34,647 bases of DNA from Armatimonadota bacterium (GTDB lineage: Bacteria; Armatimonadota; UBA5829; DTJY01), in assembly GCA_025358205.1 (NCBI GenBank), contig JANYKG010000040.1, positions 1 to 34,647 on the forward strand, read 5' to 3'. The position numbers and the translations under genes are program-made. Under the pieces are notes generated by a model that was given only the letters and a program-made list of their open reading frames with translations, ran no database searches and was not told the origin of the DNA. Shown piece after piece: positions 1,686-31,693 of the stretch (its first letter is position 1; each line of letters opens with the position of its first letter).

Positions 1686-3002
1686 TCAGCCCTTGATGCC
1701 GGTTAGAGTTATGCCCTGGATGAAGTATCGCTGGGTGAAGAAGAAGACCAGCAGAACCGGAAGCATGACCATTGTGGACGCAGCCATCAGCAGGCCGTAC
1801 TCCGCGCCGTGAGCGCCCTGGAAGAGCTGAAGCGCATAGGCAAGCGGCATCTTCTCGGGCGAGTTGATGTAGATCAGCGGACCCATGAAGTTGTTCCACG
1901 ACCCCATGAACGTCATGATCGTCAACGCCGCAAGCGCGGGCTTGATGAGCGGGAGCATGATCCGCCAGTAGATACCGAAGTACGTGCAGCCGTCAATCTT
2001 CGCCGCGTCCTCCAGGTCGTTCGGGATGGTCATGAAGAACTGCCGCAGCAGGAACACGCTAAACGCCCCGCCGAAGAACGACGGTATCCACAACGGCTTG
2101 AGCGTGTCAATCCACCCCAGTGTGCGGAAGATCAGGAAGACCGGGATCATCGTCACCGCGCCGGGGAGCATCATGGTCGCGAGTAGGACCACGAACAACT
2201 GGTCCCTGCCAGGCCACTTCAGCCGCGCGAACGAGTACGCCACAAGCGAACTGGAGAGAATAGTCCCCAGGATGCTAAGCATGGTGATGTAGACCGTGTT
2301 CCACACGTAGAGCAGGCCGCCCTTGGTTTCCTTTGGCAGGAAGGTCAGCGCGTCCGAGTAGTTTTTCCACTTCGGCGCGAATGCACGAGTCTTGGTCAGC
2401 TTCGACCCCTCAAGGATGAACGTCTTGCCCGCGTCCGGCTGGCCTGGCAGAATCTCCACCCGCTTTGTGCCGTCCTCAAGCTCCTTAGTCTCCACAACCC
2501 TCACGGTCTTGCCCGCAACGGTCATCGTGGAAAGCCCGCACTGCTTACCGTCGAACAGCATCTTTACCTGCTGGGTCGGTATCCACACCGGCGGGTACTT
2601 CGACATCTCGTCCTCTTCCTTGACGGAAGTGGTCACCAGCCAGATGAACGGCACGAGGAATACCGCCGACCCGGTGAGCAGAATCATGTGGTAGGTGATC
2701 TTGCGGATGTTCTCTTTGCGCGCCTTGATCCGCTTCCAGTCCTTCGTGCGTCTCGGGCCGACAGCATACCCGATGTAGAGGCCCACAAACGCCGCGACCA
2801 GCGCCGCGAAGAAGCTCGCCGCGGCAGGCAGATGGGCTGTCTTATGCACCACGACCGCCGGAATCAGGCCGATAACCAACGCCACCAGTACACCAGGACT
2901 GCGATACTTGAAGCCCTCGGTGATAAGCGTCATGACAAGCCCTGCCGTGAAGTACAGCAGCAGTGTTCCGAATATCCAGAATATGGGGTTCATTTGTTCC
3001 AT
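1686..3002 (-). CDS. CUT1 sugar ABC transporter permease (MalG/UgpE-like) with N-terminal extension and loop insertion
   Basis: A 438-residue inner-membrane subunit. The canonical permease begins at about residue 104 (TM1, ending LVPFIWLVTTSVKEEDE) and resumes at about 210 (PKWKNYSDAL). The EAA loop is near residues 330-350 (LEDAAKIDGC...IMLPL) and would dock on an ABC ATPase. Two features are unusual. Three extra hydrophobic segments (about 7-29, 37-53, 59-83) precede the usual TM1. A beta-rich stretch (about 143-208, with VAGKTVRVVETKELEDGTK) is inserted in the extracytoplasmic loop between TM1 and TM2. No clear Shine-Dalgarno precedes the ATG at 3002; an ATG at 2993 is also possible. It lies between the binding-protein/permease fusion upstream and the hydrolase downstream, so the three form one uptake operon without its own ATPase. 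Confidence 0.9.
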   Translation of the reverse strand: MEQMNPIFWIFGTLLLYFTAGLVMTLITEGFKYRSPGVLVALVIGLIPAVVVHKTAHLPAAASFFAALVAAFVGLYIGYAVGPRRTKDWKRIKARKENIRKITYHMILLTGSAVFLVPFIWLVTTSVKEEDEMSKYPPVWIPTQQVKMLFDGKQCGLSTMTVAGKTVRVVETKELEDGTKRVEILPGQPDAGKTFILEGSKLTKTRAFAPKWKNYSDALTFLPKETKGGLLYVWNTVYITMLSILGTILSSSLVAYSFARLKWPGRDQLFVVLLATMMLPGAVTMIPVFLIFRTLGWIDTLKPLWIPSFFGGAFSVFLLRQFFMTIPNDLEDAAKIDGCTYFGIYWRIMLPLIKPALAALTIMTFMGSWNNFMGPLIYINSPEKMPLAYALQLFQGAHGAEYGLLMAASTMVMLPVLLVFFFTQRYFIQGITLTGIKG

Positions 3003-3103: not shown

Positions 3104-5509
3104 TCACTTCCCTTTCTCCGCTTCGTAGTGAACCCAGCGCGGGGCCATCTTGAGCTGAACCACCGTCAGGGCGAGAATGATTATGAACATCAGCCACGCA
3201 ATAGCCGACGCATATCCCATCTTGAAGTACGTGAACGCGTTGTTGAACAGGTAGAGCACCGGCACCGCCGTCGAGTCCACGGGGCCGCCGCCGGTCATAA
3301 TGTACACCGTGTCGAACGTCTGCAGGACGCCTATCGTACCCATAATCAGGTTGAAGAACAGGTAGGGCGTGAGCATCGGCAGCGTCACGTTCCAGAACCG
3401 GTGCCACCAGTTCGCGCCGTCAATGTCCGCCGCCTCGTAGAGGTGCTGCGGCACACCCTGAAGACCTGCAAGCCACAGAATCATCCCTCCGCCTGCGCCC
3501 CACAGACCCATGAATATCAGCCCCGGTTTCGCCCACAGCTCGCTCGCCAGCCACGCAGGCGCTGCGAGGTGGAACCACTGGCCTAGAGTCGCTCGCCATG
3601 CCGCGTTCACCAGGCCGTACTGCGGGTTCAGCACCCAGATCCACAGGATGGCATTGGCCACCACGGGGACGATGGACGGCAGGTAGAAGAACGTCCGATA
3701 CCATGTCATGCCGCCAACCTTGGTGTTCAGCAGCATCGCGATTGCCAGCCCCGTGATCAGCCCAAGCGGTAGTCCGAACAGCGCAAGGAACCCGGCATTG
3801 TAGAGCGCCTTGGACAGGTACTGCCAGTCGTCGGTCAGCAGTTGCTGGTAGTTGTAGATCCCCACCCACCGGGCCGGATGCAGCACATCATAGTCGCAGA
3901 AGCTGAAGATGATGGATGCGATTATCGGGCCGATGGTGAAGACCAGGAAGCCGAGTATCCACGGCGCGGCGAACGTGTAGCCCGCGATCGTCTCACTCCT
4001 GGTGATCGCACCCATCGGGCCGTATTCGCGGAACTTCCTAATGACAAAGCCGATGAACACAACCAGCAGAATCGCCAGAATTGCGAGCGGGAAGCTCCAG
4101 TTCAGCACCTTGAACTTGCTCTTGTCGAATACCTTGTCGAGTTCTTTCTGGACGATCTTCGTGTGCATGTCCATCGCGGCCTGCGGTGACATCTTGTGCC
4201 GCGTGCCCTCGTCGAAAGCCTTCACATGCTCGTCCCACAACCGCTGGCCGACGAACGTTACCGGACGGTACTTCGACACCTTCATCAGGTCGAGGAACAG
4301 CCGCAGGGAGTCCCGGTACTTCGGAAGCACCGGCGCAAACTCCTTGAAAATCATCTCGTTGACCTTCACATCAGCGGTCATGCTCGGCACATACGGCCTG
4401 CCCTTGCTCGCGTTGTACTCCTTCTGAGCCTGGCATGCTATCCGCGTGGCCTCCGGTGAAACCATCCACTTGATGAACGCCCAGGACTCCTCCACGTGCT
4501 TCGCGCCCTTGGGGATGGCGAACGAGAAGCCGCCGCTCCAGGTGATGAACTTGGGCTGACCTGCGAACCTCCCCTTCCCTTCCAGGCGCTCTCTGGGAAC
4601 CGGGGCAGGCGCAACCGCGAAGTCCAGTTCCGGGCCGTACCGCGCGATGCCGTCCAGGAACCAGTTGCCGTCAATCTTCATGGCGACCAGGCCGGTGAGG
4701 AACGGATCGAGTTCGTTCGCCTTGAAAGCGCTGGAGAACGAGTTCGTCGCCTCCACGCCTTTCAGCGAATCGTAAACCGATGTCATGTACTTCAGCGCGT
4801 CCACCGAGTACTTGTTGTTCATGGTACACGTGCGGCCGTCGGTGCTCATGAACTCGCCGCCGTTCTGCCAGCTATAGAGGTAGAGCCAACTGTTGCCGTA
4901 GTTGGGTAGGAAGCCGATTCGCTCGAAGTCGCCGTCCCTGCCGTACTTGGTCAGCTTCTTCGCGCACTCCAGAAGCTCGTCCCAGGTCTGCGGCGGCTTG
5001 TTCGGGTCCAGCCCTGCCGCGCGGAAGAGCGTCTTACTGTAGTAGAGCGCGCGGTCGTCGGTGCTGAACGGAATGGCGTACACCTTGCCGTTGTAGGTGG
5101 CCTCCGACCAGCAGGCCTTGTAGAACTCCTGCGGCTTGATACCGTCCTTCTTCGCCTGGTCGCGCTTGATAAGCGTGTCCAGATTCATGAAGGTATCGCG
5201 CGAAGCCCAGTCGCCGATTGTGAAGCGGTCTTGGTCCACCACGTCCGGCGGAACCTTGCCGGCGATGGCGGTTATCAGCTTCTGGGGGTTCATGCCGCCC
5301 GCGCCCATCTGCAGGGCCTGCACGTCAATGTTGGGATGACGGCGCTCGAACTCGGCGATCTGGGCATCAAGGCCTTTGGTCGCCGGGCCTGATTGCAGAC
5401 CCCAGACGACTAGCTTGATCTTGCCGGTGTCCTTCTGCGCGCATCCGGTTAGGAGCACGACCGGCAGGAGCAGAATGAAAACGAGTGCTAACGAACGAAA
5501 AACGCGCAT
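3104..5509 (-). CDS. Fused lipoprotein sugar-binding protein and MalF-like ABC permease
   Basis: 801 residues from the ATG at 5509, which has AGAGGT about 8 nt upstream; a longer in-frame ORF to 5557 has no better start. Residues 1-23 are a lipoprotein signal peptide with lipobox LTGC (Cys23). Residues about 30-460 are a family-1 extracellular solute-binding protein (KLVVWGLQSGP; GKVYAIPFSTDDRALYY; FIKWMVSPEA). An extra membrane segment at about 468-487 carries the chain inward. Residues about 505-801 are a CUT1 MalF/UgpA-type permease, with the EAA loop near 690 (YEAADIDGANWW) and the typical TGGGP motif. The topology is coherent: binding domain outside, one added span, then a normal permease. 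Import of a sugar or oligosaccharide is likely; the substrate is unknown. It heads the operon with the second permease and the GH5-like hydrolase. The ATPase must come from elsewhere. Confidence 0.9.
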   Translation of the reverse strand: MRVFRSLALVFILLLPVVLLTGCAQKDTGKIKLVVWGLQSGPATKGLDAQIAEFERRHPNIDVQALQMGAGGMNPQKLITAIAGKVPPDVVDQDRFTIGDWASRDTFMNLDTLIKRDQAKKDGIKPQEFYKACWSEATYNGKVYAIPFSTDDRALYYSKTLFRAAGLDPNKPPQTWDELLECAKKLTKYGRDGDFERIGFLPNYGNSWLYLYSWQNGGEFMSTDGRTCTMNNKYSVDALKYMTSVYDSLKGVEATNSFSSAFKANELDPFLTGLVAMKIDGNWFLDGIARYGPELDFAVAPAPVPRERLEGKGRFAGQPKFITWSGGFSFAIPKGAKHVEESWAFIKWMVSPEATRIACQAQKEYNASKGRPYVPSMTADVKVNEMIFKEFAPVLPKYRDSLRLFLDLMKVSKYRPVTFVGQRLWDEHVKAFDEGTRHKMSPQAAMDMHTKIVQKELDKVFDKSKFKVLNWSFPLAILAILLVVFIGFVIRKFREYGPMGAITRSETIAGYTFAAPWILGFLVFTIGPIIASIIFSFCDYDVLHPARWVGIYNYQQLLTDDWQYLSKALYNAGFLALFGLPLGLITGLAIAMLLNTKVGGMTWYRTFFYLPSIVPVVANAILWIWVLNPQYGLVNAAWRATLGQWFHLAAPAWLASELWAKPGLIFMGLWGAGGGMILWLAGLQGVPQHLYEAADIDGANWWHRFWNVTLPMLTPYLFFNLIMGTIGVLQTFDTVYIMTGGGPVDSTAVPVLYLFNNAFTYFKMGYASAIAWLMFIIILALTVVQLKMAPRWVHYEAEKGK

Positions 5510-5675
5510 GCGTGTTGACCTCTGGAAGGTTGTAATTGAATCATATCGCGCGAGCATCGTCGGTCACGCAGAGTAGTATTCGCAGTCATGACAGGAATTC
5601 CCTTCGTCCGAAAACGAGAGAACACATAATGCACGGATGTGAGGGGATGACATGGATAGGGAAATGACTGATGCG

Positions 5676-17519: not shown

Positions 17520-17678
17520 CCCGAAACCTCCTGTGATATGGCTGACTCAGTATACCCATTATTCGCCTCACCATCCGCGTCATCCTCCCCAATTCGTGCA
17601 ATCCGCGTTCTCCCCTTCTTGACCCAAATGCAGAAAGTGTGTAACCTTTGCAGTATACTCACGCTTCGGGAGGCAGTA

Positions 17679-20075
17679 ATGGCACTACACAAGTATGGGC
17701 ACTTTTCGGAAGACGGCAGGGAGTTCATCATCACGCGGCCGGACACACCCGCGCCGTGGGTGAACTACATATCGAACAAGCAGTACACGGGGCTGGTCAC
17801 CAACTCCGGCGGCGGATACAGCTTCTACATCTGCCCCAAGGATTCGCGCATAAGCCGACACCGATACAACGGCCTCCCCTGGGACCGACCGGGCCGCTAC
17901 GTCTACCTGCGCGACGAGGACGGCGAGTTTTGGTCGCTCACCTGGCAGCCGACTCCGAGCAAGAAGCTCGACTTCTACGAGTGCCGCCACGGAATGGGCT
18001 ACACCTCCATCGAGCAGGAGTACAAGGGCGTCCGAAGCAAGGTCCTCTACTTCGTGCCTCAGGACGATGACCTGGAGATTTGGAGGGTTTCGCTCACGAA
18101 CAAGAGCGAACAGGCGCGGAAGTTCGATGTCTTCTCATACGTCGAGTTGACCCTCGGCCATGCGCTGGTGGATCTCATCAACCAGCCGAACGATCAGCAC
18201 TTCAACGTCGTGAAGTTCGACAAAGCGAACGACTTCCTCTACGCGACGAAGAACTACTGGGTCACGTACCGCGGCGCGACCGTCAAGCAGCCGAACCAGG
18301 CCTGGAACAAGTACGTCTACTTCGCTTCGTCGCTCCCCGTCAAGGGCTTCGACGGCAAGAAGGATGCGTTTATCGGCAACTGGCGCTCGGAGTCCGATCC
18401 GATTGCCGTGGAGGAAGGCATCTGCCGCAACACGGAGATCACCGCGAGCGATCCGTGCGCGGCCCTGCAGAACGAGATCACGCTGCAACCCGGCGAGACG
18501 ACCGAGTTCGTCATCCTGATGGGCATCGTTGACCGCGAAGGATACGAGCAGTCCGCGCCGCCGCTCGTCGAGAAGTACCGCAACCTGGCCAATGTGGATG
18601 CGGCCTTCGCTCAGGTGAAGGCGTATTGGGACGAATACCTCTCGGTCGCGCAGGTAGAAACTCCTGATCAGGAAATGAACGTAATGTTGAACACCTGGGC
18701 CAAGCGGCAGGCGTGGGTTACCTTCCATATGCACCGCACGGCGGGTTATTACCACGGCGGCCTGCTCTTCGGCACGGGCATTCGCGATCAGTCGCAGGAT
18801 CTGCTCGGCCCGCTGATGGCCGAAGCGCCCGAGGTCGGCGACCGAATCTGCGAGGTCATCAGCCACCAGTTCGCGGACGGCAGCACCCTGCACAACTACT
18901 TCCGCCTCACCGGACAGGGCGAGAAGACCGGTCACTCGGATACGCCCCTTTGGCTCCCGCTCGCCATTATGTCGTACCTGAAAGAGACCGGCGACTTCGA
19001 GTTCCTGAAGCGTGTCGTGCCTTTCCACGACGAGGGCGAGGGAACGGTTCTGGAACACCTCACCCGCGCAATTGACTACCCGCTAAGCCAGCTTACACCG
19101 CGCCATTTGCCTAAGTTTGGGCCGGGAGACTGGAATGATACGCTGGACTACGTGGGTCGAGAGGGCATCGGCGAAAGCATGTGGGTCGCGGAGTTCCTCT
19201 GCTTCATCCTGCGCGAGTCCACCGACCTGCTGACCAAGATCGGACACACCGAGAAGGCCGACCAATACCGCAAGGAGTACGACCAGATCGCCGATGCGCT
19301 GAACACGCTCTGCTGGGACGGCGAGTGGTACATCCGCGGAACAAGGGACGACGGGAAGGTGATCGGCTCGCACACCAACGAGGAGGGGCGCATCTTCCTC
19401 GAGTCAACAACATGGGCTGTAATCAGTGGCATCGCGCCCGAAGACCGCGCTAATCAGACTATGGATTCGGTCTACAAGCACCTGAATACCGCTCGCGGGC
19501 CTAAGATTCTGCATCCAGCTTATACAAAGGTTGACCCCGGCGTGGGGCTTGCGACCAGGTGTGTACCGGGCAAGAAGGAGAACGGCGCGATCTTCAACCA
19601 CCCAGCCGCGTGGGCAATCATGGCCGAGTGCATACTCCATAACGGCGACCGGGCTTACGAGTATTACAGGAAGACCATGCCATGCATCCAGGCGTACGAC
19701 CCCGACATCTATCGGATGGAGCCATACGTCTATTCCGAGTACGTCACCAGCCCGGACCACCCGACCTTCGGCGAGGCGTCGCACTCCTGGCTCACCGGCT
19801 CGGGTGTCTGGATGTATCGCAACGGCCTCGACAACATCTTGGGCGTCAGGCCGACTTATGAGGGGCTTTTCATTGACCCGTGCATCCCGTCCGCGTGGGA
19901 TGGATTTACGTTCACGCGCCTTTTCAGGGACGCCTGGTACGAGATCACGGTGACCAACCCCTCTCACGTCCAGCACGGCGTGGCGAGCATCGAAGTAGAT
20001 GGGGCGCTCATCAAAGGGCAGACGCTCCCGGTCTTTGCCGAGGGGAAACACAAGGTAACGGTCATCATGGGATGA
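17679..20075 (+). CDS. GH94-family disaccharide phosphorylase (cellobiose/chitobiose phosphorylase-like)
   Basis: 798 residues from the ATG at 17679, with GGGAGG 6 nt upstream; the open frame extends to 17538 but that part is not protein-like. GH94 enzymes split beta-linked disaccharides with phosphate to give a sugar 1-phosphate. The order is as expected: N-terminal beta-sandwich (about 1-280), linker, then an (alpha/alpha)6 barrel with GDWNDTLDYVG, where D487 is the candidate general acid, close to the position in characterised cellobiose and chitobiose phosphorylases. Later motifs are HPAAWAIMAECILHNGDRA, TSPDHPTFGEASHSWLTGSG and the C-terminal beta domain. Length agrees with the family (about 800). 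There is no signal peptide, so it acts in the cytoplasm on imported disaccharides and would complement the two ABC importers. Specificity cannot be assigned from the sequence. A TATACT at 17654-17659 may be its -10. Confidence 0.9.
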   Translation: MALHKYGHFSEDGREFIITRPDTPAPWVNYISNKQYTGLVTNSGGGYSFYICPKDSRISRHRYNGLPWDRPGRYVYLRDEDGEFWSLTWQPTPSKKLDFYECRHGMGYTSIEQEYKGVRSKVLYFVPQDDDLEIWRVSLTNKSEQARKFDVFSYVELTLGHALVDLINQPNDQHFNVVKFDKANDFLYATKNYWVTYRGATVKQPNQAWNKYVYFASSLPVKGFDGKKDAFIGNWRSESDPIAVEEGICRNTEITASDPCAALQNEITLQPGETTEFVILMGIVDREGYEQSAPPLVEKYRNLANVDAAFAQVKAYWDEYLSVAQVETPDQEMNVMLNTWAKRQAWVTFHMHRTAGYYHGGLLFGTGIRDQSQDLLGPLMAEAPEVGDRICEVISHQFADGSTLHNYFRLTGQGEKTGHSDTPLWLPLAIMSYLKETGDFEFLKRVVPFHDEGEGTVLEHLTRAIDYPLSQLTPRHLPKFGPGDWNDTLDYVGREGIGESMWVAEFLCFILRESTDLLTKIGHTEKADQYRKEYDQIADALNTLCWDGEWYIRGTRDDGKVIGSHTNEEGRIFLESTTWAVISGIAPEDRANQTMDSVYKHLNTARGPKILHPAYTKVDPGVGLATRCVPGKKENGAIFNHPAAWAIMAECILHNGDRAYEYYRKTMPCIQAYDPDIYRMEPYVYSEYVTSPDHPTFGEASHSWLTGSGVWMYRNGLDNILGVRPTYEGLFIDPCIPSAWDGFTFTRLFRDAWYEITVTNPSHVQHGVASIEVDGALIKGQTLPVFAEGKHKVTVIMG

Positions 20076-20548: not shown

Positions 20549-22414
20549 TCATTTCTCCGAGGGGATAATGATTCCGCGCATGATTATGTTCTGGCAGAAG
20601 ATAAAAACCAACAGGGTCGGGATCGCGGCCAACACCAGTCCGGCGTATACCATGTACTGCGGCGCCCAGATCTGCATCTGGTAGAGCCAAACCATGAGAG
20701 TCCACATCTTGGGGTTCTGGCATACGAGGAACGCCCACATAAATGAGCCGTATGCCATGGTGAACGCGCCCAGCCCGATCACCGCCAACACGGGTTTGGA
20801 GAGGTTGATGGTGATCATGCGGTACATCTGCATCTCTGTTGCGCCGTCCAGCATGGCTGCTTCGTAAAGCTCCTTGGGCAGGCTGTCGAAGAACCCCTTG
20901 AGCAGGAAGATCGAGTAGCCGTTTGCCAGGCTCGGAAGGATGATGGCCCAGTACGTGCCAAGTAGGTGCAGGTTCTTGATGAGCAGGAAGCTGGGGATGG
21001 CGCTGACTTCCGCCGGGAACGCCATGGTAGCGAGAAGGAAGAGCAGTATCTTGTAGGTTCCGCGCAGGTTGAACCGGCTCAGGGCGTATGCGCACAGAGG
21101 GTTGACCGTCAGGGTCGCGAGCACGATTCCGAGGCAGAGGATCGCGGTGTTGAGCAGCGCGCGTCCGTGAATGAAGATGTACTCCAAGACCTCGCGGTAG
21201 TTACGCACGATGAACTCGTGACGAATCGCGCCCCGGTTCTCCTTCAGCTCCAGCCAGTCGCTGTCCTGATATGGTGGAGCGACGGCTTGGAACGAGACGA
21301 AACTCGTGCCGAGCGCACGGTTCATGGCGGCGGCGGTGTGGTACTTGCGCTGGAGGGCGGCGCGGAAGGCGAGATCGGGTCCGACGACCTCAACGTTGCG
21401 GATCGGGACGACCGTTCCCAGAACCTCCACCCAATCCACAAGCGCAACGCCTCTGTTCGGCGCAGACTGGGCGAACGGCACATCGTCCCATGTCTGCACC
21501 TTCGATGCGTAGGCCTTGTTGTACAGAGCCAGGTTGCCGTACTTCGCGCGGATGAATGCGCGGTAGGCAGGTGCAGCGGAAACGTCCATGCGCAGGAAGC
21601 CCCTCGGGCAGTCCTTGCGCACGAAGTCCTCCCATGCGGCTGCTTCCGGGCCGGATGGAACGCGCGGTGTGAGATGAATGTCCGAAAGCTTTTGGACGTG
21701 GTCGCCGAGAGCGAGGCTCTTCTTCGCGGCCTTGAAGCTGCCCAAGCGGACCTTCAGCGCGTCCTGGTAAAGCCCGTCAACTGAGACGGTGAGCAGGTAG
21801 CGTTGGGGCAGAGCGTCCTTGAACTCCAGGTACTCCGAGAACTTGCGATTCGGCTGCACGGTGTAATCGCGAGTACCCCAGATCTCTTGAGGAATGTCTA
21901 CCTCTAGCCAAGTTTCCGCCGTATCCTTATACACTTGGTTCATCTTCTGCAGGTCGCCGTGAAACTTGCGGCTGACGAACACCCTGTACTTGGAGACAAG
22001 CTCAGGCGTGATTTTCTGCGCGTTCGGCGAGTAGCAGGCGGCGAGCATCACATGCGTCTTAGGCAGTGAGGACTTGAAGTTCCGCCACTCCGTGATGAAT
22101 GCCTTGTTCGGTTTGGTCGGCGTCGGAATCTCGCGGAAAGTGCCGTAATCCGAGCCGAACCATTGGTTGTAGAGGAGGATGTCCTCGCAATACTTCGCCT
22201 CGACGTACTTGCGGTAGAGAACCTGATCGTTGTAGACATATCGCGGCACAACTCGGAACTCATCCTGATCCACGTAGCTGGTGAACGAGGTTGAGACCAT
22301 GAGCAGGAACGGGTAGACCATTGTGAGGGCGCCAAGTGTCAGCAGGACGTACAGCGCCCAGATCAACCCGCGTATCTTCTTCTCTTTTCGCCCGACGATG
22401 CTTATGATCGGCAT
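20549..22414 (-). CDS. CUT1 ABC permease (MalG-like) with ~350-residue repeat insertion in one loop
   Basis: 621 residues, more than twice the usual ~280. TM1 is at about 14-44 (YPFLLMVSTSF), and the standard permease resumes at about 408 (YIFIHGRALLNTAILCLGI). The EAA loop (LYEAAMLDGATEMQMYR) and the C-terminus are normal. Residues about 50-400 fill the extracytoplasmic loop between TM1 and TM2 with about five diverged modules of ~70 residues. Each module has a core [YF]-x-x-[FYA]-[VIL]-x-x-K-[YF] followed by a W/F and a P; cores begin at Y67, Y143, Y216 (degenerate), Y284 and F350. Clear cores are YRAFIRAKYGNLALYNKAY and FRAALQRKYHTAAAMNRAL, which resemble KYG...LN..WGT segments known from some glycoside hydrolases. 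The module probably touches the fused binding protein or the sugar. It is encoded after the fusion protein at 22530-24977. Confidence 0.88.
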   Translation of the reverse strand: MPIISIVGRKEKKIRGLIWALYVLLTLGALTMVYPFLLMVSTSFTSYVDQDEFRVVPRYVYNDQVLYRKYVEAKYCEDILLYNQWFGSDYGTFREIPTPTKPNKAFITEWRNFKSSLPKTHVMLAACYSPNAQKITPELVSKYRVFVSRKFHGDLQKMNQVYKDTAETWLEVDIPQEIWGTRDYTVQPNRKFSEYLEFKDALPQRYLLTVSVDGLYQDALKVRLGSFKAAKKSLALGDHVQKLSDIHLTPRVPSGPEAAAWEDFVRKDCPRGFLRMDVSAAPAYRAFIRAKYGNLALYNKAYASKVQTWDDVPFAQSAPNRGVALVDWVEVLGTVVPIRNVEVVGPDLAFRAALQRKYHTAAAMNRALGTSFVSFQAVAPPYQDSDWLELKENRGAIRHEFIVRNYREVLEYIFIHGRALLNTAILCLGIVLATLTVNPLCAYALSRFNLRGTYKILLFLLATMAFPAEVSAIPSFLLIKNLHLLGTYWAIILPSLANGYSIFLLKGFFDSLPKELYEAAMLDGATEMQMYRMITINLSKPVLAVIGLGAFTMAYGSFMWAFLVCQNPKMWTLMVWLYQMQIWAPQYMVYAGLVLAAIPTLLVFIFCQNIIMRGIIIPSEK

Positions 22415-22529: not shown

Positions 22530-24977
22530 CTATGCTCCTGCGGTCTTGAACTGCAGTTTCGATAATATGCGCAACTGGAACACGGTAAACCCGACGAGAA
22601 GCGAACCCAGCAGCCACGCCATGGCCACCGCGTACCCGAACTTCAGGTACAGGAATGCGTTGTACCAAATCTCCAGCCCGGCGACGTGCGTGGCGTACAT
22701 GGGACCGCCGCCCGTCATCACGAATATAAAATCGAATGAGCGGAATGCGCTGATAAACGCCCCGACGAAGTTGATAATGATAAGCGGACGCAGGAATGGG
22801 ATGGTGATGTGGCGGATCTTGTGCAGAACGCCCGCGCCATCCAGGTCTGCGGCCTCATACACGTCCTCCGGGATGCCCTTCAACGCGGCGAGATAGATTA
22901 TGCACCCCGGCCCAACGTGCGCCCAGATGATAGGAAGAACCACGCAGAGCATCGCCAGCTTAGGATCGCCCAACCAGGACTGCGGTTCGATGAGCGGAAT
23001 CTTCATCGGGAGGTGCATCCACGCCGCCGCCGAGTTCAGATGCACGAGCAACGACGTGTTGATCTGCTCCAGCATGCGGTTCAGCAGTCCGGCCGGGCTG
23101 GGATTGTAAAAGAATTTCCATAGAAACATGATCACCAGGCCGGTTGTCACGGCCGGGAGGTAGTACAAGGTTCGGTAGAGCACTTTGCCGCGAGGAATCT
23201 CGTGCAGCATCATGGCTAGGATGATGGGCGTGAAGAACCCCAGGCCGAGCATCCAGAGCATGAACTGGAAGCTGTTCCAAAACGCCTTCCAGACCTGAGG
23301 CGTGAAGAGCACCTCGCTGAAGTTGTCCAGCCCGACCCACTTCGCGCCGGCGATGATCTTGTAGTCCTGGAACGCCATCAGTGATCCGCGCGCGAGTGGA
23401 TAGTACGCCCACAGAGCGACCGAGATCAGCGCGGGGGCCATGATGAGGAACGCGAAGAGATTGCGCTTCAAGTTCGCCCTCTTACTCTTTGCGCTGCCGA
23501 CAATGGAATCCTGCCCCTCGTAGTCCCTGCTGAAGCTCTTAATGACGTAGCGGAAGACGAGCGTGAAGAGAAGCAGCAGGAACACGACCACGACTCCCGC
23601 CACCCGGCGGCGGAACTGCATGACACGCGGCGCCACTATGCCCATGAGCTTCTCGTTGCAGTGTTTGACGGCCTTGTCCAACTCGGCCTGGTAGTTCACG
23701 TTGTCGGTCAGCCAGACTGTGTCCAGCGGTGGGGTCATCTCCGCATAGATATTCTCGCAGTTGTGCCCATATGGTTCGGGACGCCCGGAGCGCATTGCCT
23801 CGTTCAGCGTGGCTTCCCACCCCTTCGGCACGTCCTTGAGATACTGCGTGTAGCCATACTGCCTCAGGTATTTGGGTGCGATGAAGCGCGCCAACCCTGA
23901 TTCCACGAAGTACTTGCACCTTATGCGGATCGCCTCGTCACTGGCCCAAAAGCGGATGTACTCCCACGCGGCATCCCGCACACGCTTGTCCTTCGTGGTG
24001 GCGTTGATCCCCATCATCGCGCAGTTCAATTCGTTCCCGCGCTTTCCCGTCGGCCCCTGCGGCATGGGCGCGATGCCCACAAGGTTCGGGTTCACCGTCG
24101 CCATCATCTGATCGTTAAGGTATGTGAACGTCATGGCGATCTTGCCCAGCAGCCAGAGATCGTTGTACTGGGTATCCCTGTACGCCACACCTTTGTACGT
24201 CTTCCCTCCCCTGCTCCACCTGTTGCGGCCCAGCTTCTGGTAAAACTTCAGCGCGGAGACTGCGGCCTGATCGTTGAAGACAGCTTTCCACGTGCCGTCC
24301 TTCTCTTGTCGCACAGCATCACCGCCCGCCGACCAGAGGAAGTCTATGAACCACCATGCCGCGTGAGGACCCGAGAATACCGCCATGCCGTACTGCCCCT
24401 TCTCGGGGATGGTCAGACGCTCGGCATAGTTGTACAACTCATCCCAATTCTTCGGCGGACGCTCAGGGTCAAGGCCCGCGGCGCGGAACAGATCCTTCCG
24501 GTAGGCCAGCGCCATCACGTATGTCTGATACGGAATGGCCCAGACGTGTCCCTCACGCTTGATCACCGGCCAGATGGACTTGTAGATTCCCGCCTGCAGC
24601 GGCTTGTCTTTGTCAACGTATTCGTCCAGCGGGTAGAGGAACTTCTGCTGGATGTAGCTGTCTGAGATGCGGAAGTTGACGTACAGCACGTCGGGAGCGA
24701 CGCCGCCCGCCATGGCGAGAAGCGGACCGACTTCCTGGTCCAGTCCAGGCGCGGTGATTCCCCTGAAGCCCTCCAGCTTGATCTCAGGGTGAAGCTCCAT
24801 GAATCGCTGGACTATCGCCCAGTTCGCCCGGTCCGAGATGCCGCGGGACTCCTTGAGCGGGAGCAGCCAGACGCGCAGAAGAACCTGATTCTTCGGCTCC
24901 GCACCGTGCAAGACGGCTGAGGAGGCGAGACTCAGGAGCACGACCAATGCGATAAGCAGTCTGCGAAAAAGAGGCAA
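22530..24977 (-). CDS. Fused sugar-binding protein and MalF-like ABC permease (second system)
   Basis: 815 residues from a TTG at 24977, preceded by AGGTGA. Residues 1-26 form a signal peptide (FRRLLIALVVLLSLASSAV) with a type I site near HGA and no lipobox, unlike the first fusion. Residues about 30-455 are a solute-binding protein (MAGGVAPDVLYVNFRISDSY; WAIPYQTYVMALAYRKDLFR). A membrane span at about 459-482 (AGVVVVFLLLLFTLVFRYVI) leads to a MalF/UgpA-type permease at about 505-815, with the EAA loop YEAADLDGAGVLHKI near 706 and the MTGGGP motif. The binding domain would be tethered by the permease itself. It lies downstream of PIG-L, Gfo/Idh/MocA and MDR dehydrogenase genes and upstream of the 621-residue permease, so it probably imports a modified sugar those enzymes process. 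No ATPase is encoded nearby. Confidence 0.9.
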   Translation of the reverse strand: MPLFRRLLIALVVLLSLASSAVLHGAEPKNQVLLRVWLLPLKESRGISDRANWAIVQRFMELHPEIKLEGFRGITAPGLDQEVGPLLAMAGGVAPDVLYVNFRISDSYIQQKFLYPLDEYVDKDKPLQAGIYKSIWPVIKREGHVWAIPYQTYVMALAYRKDLFRAAGLDPERPPKNWDELYNYAERLTIPEKGQYGMAVFSGPHAAWWFIDFLWSAGGDAVRQEKDGTWKAVFNDQAAVSALKFYQKLGRNRWSRGGKTYKGVAYRDTQYNDLWLLGKIAMTFTYLNDQMMATVNPNLVGIAPMPQGPTGKRGNELNCAMMGINATTKDKRVRDAAWEYIRFWASDEAIRIRCKYFVESGLARFIAPKYLRQYGYTQYLKDVPKGWEATLNEAMRSGRPEPYGHNCENIYAEMTPPLDTVWLTDNVNYQAELDKAVKHCNEKLMGIVAPRVMQFRRRVAGVVVVFLLLLFTLVFRYVIKSFSRDYEGQDSIVGSAKSKRANLKRNLFAFLIMAPALISVALWAYYPLARGSLMAFQDYKIIAGAKWVGLDNFSEVLFTPQVWKAFWNSFQFMLWMLGLGFFTPIILAMMLHEIPRGKVLYRTLYYLPAVTTGLVIMFLWKFFYNPSPAGLLNRMLEQINTSLLVHLNSAAAWMHLPMKIPLIEPQSWLGDPKLAMLCVVLPIIWAHVGPGCIIYLAALKGIPEDVYEAADLDGAGVLHKIRHITIPFLRPLIIINFVGAFISAFRSFDFIFVMTGGGPMYATHVAGLEIWYNAFLYLKFGYAVAMAWLLGSLLVGFTVFQLRILSKLQFKTAGA

Positions 24978-30391: not shown

Positions 30392-31693
30392 TTAAGGAAG
30401 AGGCTCGCCGCACAGCACGCGCTCGGCAGCGGCAAGAATTACGCTCTCGCACATCGGGCTGAGTTTCTGCTCGCCATATAGCTTGTACGCCAAGTCAACT
30501 TCATACCCGCCCTGGTCAAAAGCCTTGCGGGTAGGCACATATCCAACGTTTCCATTCGCATAGGCGGCAACCATTATGTTGGAGCGCATCTTTTTGATGT
30601 TCAGCGCATATTCCACAAATACTTCGCCGGGCAGCGCCACAATTCCCGCACCATTAACCGACATGCACTGCACCTCAAAAGACTTGCTCACAGGCGCCTT
30701 ATCACCCAGTTCGATGATTTTGACAGCCCAGTCGTAATACGCCTGGTTGAGGTGGACTTCGTGAAGCGGTAGTTGATCCTTGTTCTTCAGAAGCTCGGCC
30801 ATCTCCACCATTGTCTGTTCGGCCTCTTTCCGGCTGATAGCCGCCTGCAAAGGCAGATTCGCGACCTCGCACACCACACTGATCTCAGCGTCGCCGGTTG
30901 TAGGGATTCCGGACAGCACGCCTATCACCGCGTCTCCGACTTCGCGGCCGTTGTTCTCCACCTCGTCAAATGTCGCGCGTCGTAATGGATTGATATTGCC
31001 GCAACAGCCCTGCAGAAACATCGCCTGACCTCCCACCGCACGCTCCACAGCCCTCTGCGCAGCGCCCGGCCAGTCACCGGATACCAATCGGTTGTCGCCG
31101 CCCATCGTAACAGCGTGGCAGGCATAGTTGAAAACGGTGGCCATTTCATTCCCATCATCATCGGTGAATCGCCAAATCCCAACCTCGTTGTCGGTCAGTC
31201 CGCCTTTGTTGTCGCCAATCTGAATCTCTCCACTGGGCGCGCGGTATCTGCGGTTGATGGCGATGTGCGCCTCCGCTTTGCCAAATCCGAACTTCACCGG
31301 GCGAACATTCTTAGCCGCATCTTTCACGGTATCCGCTATTGTCACCAGCAGGCCGGCCACATAGTCCACATTCGGTTGTCCGCAAGCCCTGATCTCAGCC
31401 GTCGCGGGACCCGCGTGGGTATGTGACGCACCGATGAGGATGTTCGCAGCCGGAATACCCGCCGCCGCGCCGGCGGATTCCCGTATCTTGGCAACCTGCT
31501 TGTCATCCAGACCAATCAAATCCAGTGTCACTATCGCCGCGCGTCTCTGACCGTCGTCCAGAACAAGAGCCTTCGCGTAGATATCGTCGTGTATGCTCGT
31601 ACAGCCAGGTACACGCCCTGCATATCCACACAGATCAACGCCTATGGGCGGATTGATGATCGCCCTTGCAACTCCAGCATTCAGTCTGTTCAT
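30392..31693 (-). CDS. Neutral/alkaline ceramidase-like protein
   Basis: 433 residues. It matches the N-terminal catalytic domain of neutral/alkaline ceramidases: AGVARAIINPPIG at the start, GASHTHAGPA with zinc-ligand His residues, VFNYACHAVTMGG, SGDWPGAAQRAVE, FLQGCCGNINP and ALPGEVFVEY. It has no signal peptide and lacks the full C-terminal domain of ceramidases (families of about 650 or more). Short versions like this are common near sugar-metabolism genes, and their substrate is not known to be ceramide. It ends 26 bp before the isomerase gene, so the two are probably translated from one transcript. Confidence 0.85.
   Translation of the reverse strand: MNRLNAGVARAIINPPIGVDLCGYAGRVPGCTSIHDDIYAKALVLDDGQRRAAIVTLDLIGLDDKQVAKIRESAGAAAGIPAANILIGASHTHAGPATAEIRACGQPNVDYVAGLLVTIADTVKDAAKNVRPVKFGFGKAEAHIAINRRYRAPSGEIQIGDNKGGLTDNEVGIWRFTDDDGNEMATVFNYACHAVTMGGDNRLVSGDWPGAAQRAVERAVGGQAMFLQGCCGNINPLRRATFDEVENNGREVGDAVIGVLSGIPTTGDAEISVVCEVANLPLQAAISRKEAEQTMVEMAELLKNKDQLPLHEVHLNQAYYDWAVKIIELGDKAPVSKSFEVQCMSVNGAGIVALPGEVFVEYALNIKKMRSNIMVAAYANGNVGYVPTRKAFDQGGYEVDLAYKLYGEQKLSPMCESVILAAAERVLCGEPLP

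Follow-up and report, generated by a model that had tools for sequence, protein, structure and literature searches.

Within the window analysed here, a stretch of 34,647 nucleotides from an Armatimonadota bacterium, one gene raises the question of what a sugar permease does with a string of repeated modules, and where such modules came from. The gene (20549..22414, minus strand, start codon ATG) encodes a protein of 621 aa, assigned through its open reading frame and a BPD_transp_1 match to the MalG-type CUT1 ABC permeases, with the module array placed between the first and second transmembrane helices (TM1 and TM2). TM1 (residues 12-42; 22289..22381, minus strand) is located from an AlphaFold2 (AF2) helix and from the sequence, and is preceded by an N-terminus rich in lysine and arginine. 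The Pfam BPD_transp_1 core with its EAA loop (YEAAMLDG) occupies residues 447-613 (20576..21076, minus strand) and scores 39.8 bits against a curated cut-off of 26.4 (E=5e-10); the same model matches all 54 of 54 family members at E<=0.1. The membrane part has the MalG fold (3puv_G, Z 19.6, rmsd 3.5 over 262 residues), and a structure search with the model of the whole permease returned only MalG-like permeases. The NCBIfam UgpE and MalG models also match 54 of 54 members, with scores far below their curated cut-offs, and the NCBIfam search gave no model covering the array. Sequence and fold thus identify the protein as a MalG-type component of a CUT1 importer, predicted to carry sugar.

The insert as a whole (residues 44-408; 21191..22285, minus strand) is predicted by AF2 alone with a pLDDT of 92 and a pTM of 0.90. 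The basic N-terminus, the outward course of TM1 and the usual topology of MalG indicate that it is extracytoplasmic, on the side where a tethered substrate-binding protein (SBP) works. Its about 365 residues contain five modules of about 69 residues, all on the minus strand and scored with an iterated module model of 69 positions: module 1 at residues 61-136 (22007..22234; 44.7 bits), module 2 at 137-209 (21788..22006; 38.3 bits), module 3 at 210-277 (21584..21787; 30.5 bits, the most divergent here), module 4 at 278-343 (21386..21583; 57.8 bits) and module 5 at 344-405 (21200..21385; 56.7 bits).

The first-pass annotation of this gene had described about 350 residues inserted between TM1 and TM2, which the 365 residues in the 621-aa frame bear out, and had read the insert as a tandem duplication with divergence. 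The core positions which it gave (Y67, Y143, Y216, Y284 and F350, spaced by 76, 73, 68 and 66 residues) are exact, and the copy at Y216, described as weak, is indeed the most divergent module. Its literal pattern Y-R-x-[FY]-[VI]-x-x-K-[YF] holds only in part, being present at Y67, Y143 and Y284 and absent at Y216 and F350. The duplication itself is confirmed by module profiles, self-comparison and predicted structure. Self-comparison of the single sequence, one of two checks that the annotation had proposed, revealed off-diagonal similarity above the shuffled background, with peaks at offsets 140, 76, 66 and 216; the best off-diagonal score has P=0.015 and the sum over the six best offsets was beaten by none of 200 shuffles. 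A family profile built solely from module 5 found 115 matches to other modules at >=8 bits among 56 non-redundant members, and none in 20 shuffles per protein or in the reversed sequences. With the iterated model, the five matches in the target protein score from 30.5 to 57.8 bits, the best shuffled score being 8.6. The second check, structure prediction of the insert alone, gave five like units, and the whole protein, modelled by AF2 with the family alignment, reached a pLDDT of 87 and a pTM of 0.82. Each unit consists of a helix of 12-14 residues, a helix of 8 residues, a short turn and a third helix, a pattern repeated five times, and three-residue strands separate successive units (insert residues 79-81, 164-166, 231-233 and 298-300 in the AF2 model). 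Neither a lack of internal similarity nor a single globular domain was found. A single non-repeating domain with a pattern due to chance, a reading for which the low pairwise identity of the target protein's own modules (8-28%) could be cited, is contradicted by the profile matches, the shuffle test and the repeat units of the AF2 insert model, and it has been rejected as virtually impossible.

The module shares its ancestry with a single beta-alpha unit of barrels of the GH42/GH14 type, namely the one just after the acid/base strand, composed of a short strand, a helical hairpin and a third helix. A likeness to KYG...LN..WGT segments of glycoside hydrolases had been suspected at first sight; sequence profile and structure agree that it reflects real homology. 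A profile of 52 modules compared with the PDB matches GH42 beta-galactosidases at E=7e-11 to 1e-6 (best 6lvw), including the Thermus A4 beta-galactosidase (1kwg residues 154-216, E=1.6e-10), and also GH14 beta-amylase, GH50 agarase and GH167. In Pfam searches, Glyco_hydro_42 matches 46 of 54 members (best 4.7e-20) and GH14 matches 19 of 54; in the target protein, PF02449 is found in module 5 (residues 349-381, E=4e-4). Among the matches listed, only positions of about 144-216 of the 376 in the Glyco_hydro_42 profile are covered, several times per protein, so that a single profile segment recurs and the complete catalytic barrel is absent. Foldseek with the insert alone returned nothing at E<=0.001, its top rows, all above that value, being GH50, GH14 and GH42 barrels. 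In a second structure aligner, the best 25 rows are all GH14, GH35-like, GH42, GH50 or GH167 barrels, and in most of them it is the unit after strand 4 that pairs with module 2 together with a strand (rmsd 2.4-3.3). The match of module 2 to 1b90 residues 189-263 and 5gsm residues 185-255 has a Z of 7.0, a grey-zone value unconvincing by itself, and is accepted here solely on the strength of its agreement with the sequence match, which was obtained independently.

In comparison with GH42 (1kwg, BiBga42A) and GH14 (1b90) enzymes, which share this one unit with the module in sequence and structure, the array presents it five times, without the barrel, the conserved catalytic glutamate or the tryptophan loop. 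Among 200 modules, no conserved glutamate was found at the strand end, the residue reaching at most 21% at any of the 16 positions before the helix; the modules are therefore most likely non-catalytic. Conservation falls on Y, L, Y, N, P, W and F, which look like residues of the core. In BiBga42A, a GH42 enzyme, Trp-200 and Phe-221, at the tips of long helices of domain A, contribute to the sugar site of the adjacent subunit (PMC10688820). Judging by the ranges of the PDB matches, these two residues should lie in or near the module-matching unit. In the Thermus A4 enzyme the corresponding tryptophan, at the sugar site, is Trp182. The five-residue loop that carries Trp182 in Thermus GH42 is missing from the module consensus.

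A scan of genome contigs revealed 80 relatives, and the permease is kept at full length in more than 70 loci; the alignment comprises 72 full-length proteins, the target and its paralogue included. The insert varies from 255 to 440 residues. Most members have five module positions, the weakest of which is sometimes eroded, and all five are detected at >=10 bits in 22 of 56 non-redundant members. The number of recognisable modules ranges from two to six: six occur in a planctomycete, a Phycisphaeraceae MAG (L048:2535-4577, plus strand), and the Fimbriimonadales have two clear modules with remnants. An aspartate and a proline are invariant within the first 16 or so residues of the insert. The hosts, for the most part little-studied bacteria, belong to Armatimonadota, Planctomycetota, Verrucomicrobiota and others, and about 96 of 201 sampled Armatimonadota genomes carry the array at E<=1e-30; this importer class is therefore present in about half of the sampled genomes of the phylum and in several other phyla. 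The target genome encodes a second array permease (contig C165), 44% identical to the first, and a reverse transcriptase gene (401 aa) lies near this paralogous array transporter (L135:57-1262, plus strand, C165).

In a tree of the membrane part, computed with ten ordinary MalG-type paralogues, all array permeases form one clade (100/100) on a branch of 1.89, a length that makes its deep rooting unsure. The short forms are nested inside the five-module forms and therefore arose by loss. Modules at the same position in different proteins are about 30% identical and those at different positions about 20%, against 6% for shuffled sequences, which indicates that the duplications predate the spread of the family. 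Glyco_hydro_42 exceeds the Pfam cut-off in several array permeases (L017, L002 and L048), so automatic annotation may call such proteins beta-galactosidases.

The constant partner of the array permease is a fusion of an SBP with a MalF-type permease. In the window it is encoded 115 bases upstream of the array gene on the same strand (22530..24977, minus strand, 815 aa), and according to Pfam it joins an SBP (residues 54-349; SBP_bac_1, E=2e-36) to a permease domain (residues 599-797; BPD_transp_1, E=1.5e-9). The fusion lies directly upstream of the array gene in most family loci; it forms the commonest cluster of neighbours (45 loci) and is the only frequent true neighbour, many other clusters being spurious antisense frames. 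Where the array gene stands alone, an unlinked SBP-MalF homologue was found in 8 of 8 genomes tested, with one strong match each (E<=4e-184). In a Hydrogenedentota MAG (L027:5253-9818, plus strand), SBP, MalF and array-MalG form one frame of 1545 aa, so that a single chain comprises almost the whole importer, possibly as a result of a lost stop codon or an assembly error. No ATPase gene was found nearby, and across the family loci no recurrent enzyme or ATPase neighbour names the substrate. The genome has a single ATPase with an OB_MalK domain (C174:15501-16316, plus strand) and 26 BPD_transp_1 matches, a number of which resemble CUT1 permeases; this suggests that one shared motor serves its CUT1 importers. 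A gene for a GH94-type phosphorylase (17538-20075, plus strand) adjoins the transporter in convergent orientation and may indicate that a beta-linked disaccharide or oligosaccharide is imported.

As to the role of the array, the leading explanation, about as likely as not, is that it serves as a docking scaffold for the tethered SBP. The rigid array would hold and orient the SBP above the MalF/MalG translocation pore throughout the transport cycle, and one MalK-type ATPase coded elsewhere would power this importer along with the cell's remaining CUT1 importers. Topology suggests that the array lies close to the SBP, and the SBP-MalF fusion accompanies it whether adjacent, unlinked or fused. 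The first-pass annotation had suggested an array that may bind sugar or protein; of the two, the absence of a conserved strand-end glutamate and of the tryptophan loop makes protein docking a better guess than sugar binding. In GH42 the unit already serves protein-protein contact, as its helix tips reach the neighbouring subunit (PMC10688820). Against docking, the fusion could accompany the array simply because it supplies the second half of the pore. Furthermore, a tethered SBP does not require an array. A second pair of MalG-type and SBP-MalF fusion genes is present in the window (1686-3002 and 3104-5557, minus strand), and there the fusion 3104-5557 works with a MalG-type protein whose N-terminal part carries additional hydrophobic stretches and whose loop between TM1 and TM2, about 90 residues long, is free of modules. 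Five modules are not essential either, since the Fimbriimonadales keep only two clear ones.

Other functions must be weighed against the docking scaffold. The array might capture glycans, with weak multi-site binding of oligo- or polysaccharides concentrating the substrate at the importer in the manner of carbohydrate-binding modules; the homology of the module to a segment of a sugar-active barrel, the part of the matching GH42 segment in forming a sugar site (PMC10688820), the CUT1 context with its adjoining GH94 phosphorylase gene and the avidity that repeats often give are in line with this. It is nevertheless unlikely, as no acidic residue is conserved at the strand end, the GH42 tryptophan loop is missing from the consensus, the conserved residues look like those of a core, and no glycoside hydrolase recurs as a neighbour in the family loci. 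The contact between GH42 subunits could be read in another direction, since in GH42 trimers this region sends its helix tips into the site of the neighbour (PMC10688820): copies of the inter-subunit arm might mimic a barrel subunit and recruit secreted or periplasmic glycosidases. The same genome does contain ORFs that encode barrels in which the unit occurs once, but no specific enzyme co-occurs near the array gene and the modules lack the loop that reaches into the neighbour, which leaves such recruitment very improbable.

The repeated build and the variable number of modules, from two to six, are also what would be expected of a spacer or tether bridging to peptidoglycan, the outer membrane or a porin and so fixing the importer under an entry pore, and the main host groups are thought to possess two membranes. 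Yet no outer-membrane gene recurs alongside the array gene, TM1 and TM2 fix the two ends of the loop near each other, and the invariant aspartate and proline near the start of the insert fit a contact near the membrane; we consider a spacer quite unlikely.

The docking scaffold has a parallel in E. coli. The P2 loop of MalF, likewise a large extracytoplasmic domain inside a CUT1 permease, holds the binding protein in the maltose importer; it has about 180 residues, is non-repetitive and has another fold than the modules. Work by Daus from 2007 and 2009, cited in PMC3150292, concerns this role; the 2007 study is said to describe MalE in contact with periplasmic loops of both subunits, P2 in MalF and P1 in MalG. 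The array would fill for the tethered SBP the role that P2 has for the free maltose-binding protein. It differs from P2 in lying in the MalG-type subunit, in its length of 365 residues and in its five modules derived from a glycoside hydrolase barrel, and the two are most likely analogous in role, not homologous. Ordinary MalG/UgpE-type CUT1 permeases (E. coli MalFGK2, 3puv_G; the alginate importer AlgM1M2SS; LpqY-SugABC) have the same transmembrane fold and EAA loop, whereas the array permease has about 365 additional residues between TM1 and TM2 and falls in a separate clade. OpuA-like SBP-permease fusions resemble the partner 22530-24977 in tethering the SBP to the transmembrane part; OpuA represents another importer type, without a module array.

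The anatomy of the array, its homology and its distribution are firmly established. CUT1 importers themselves are known; one whose repeat domain was taken over from an enzyme barrel is a new variant among them, and the initial remark, which knew of no described CUT1 permease with such an insertion, stands, a literature search of open-licence papers having found none. In this class, permease chains incorporate the binding protein as well as its presumed dock. A piece of an enzyme barrel thus persists as a repeated non-catalytic transporter module, which bears on the origin and recycling of the barrel fold. More tentatively, and with some doubt, the insert may be a natural open beta-alpha repeat made by tandem duplication of one glycosidase barrel unit, its short strands paired side by side into an arc and not into a closed barrel, recruited throughout the phylum as the dock of the tethered SBP. 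If so, it would show in present-day organisms that units of a barrel can be excised, multiplied and put to new use. The window also encodes a neutral/alkaline ceramidase-like protein (30392-31693, minus strand).
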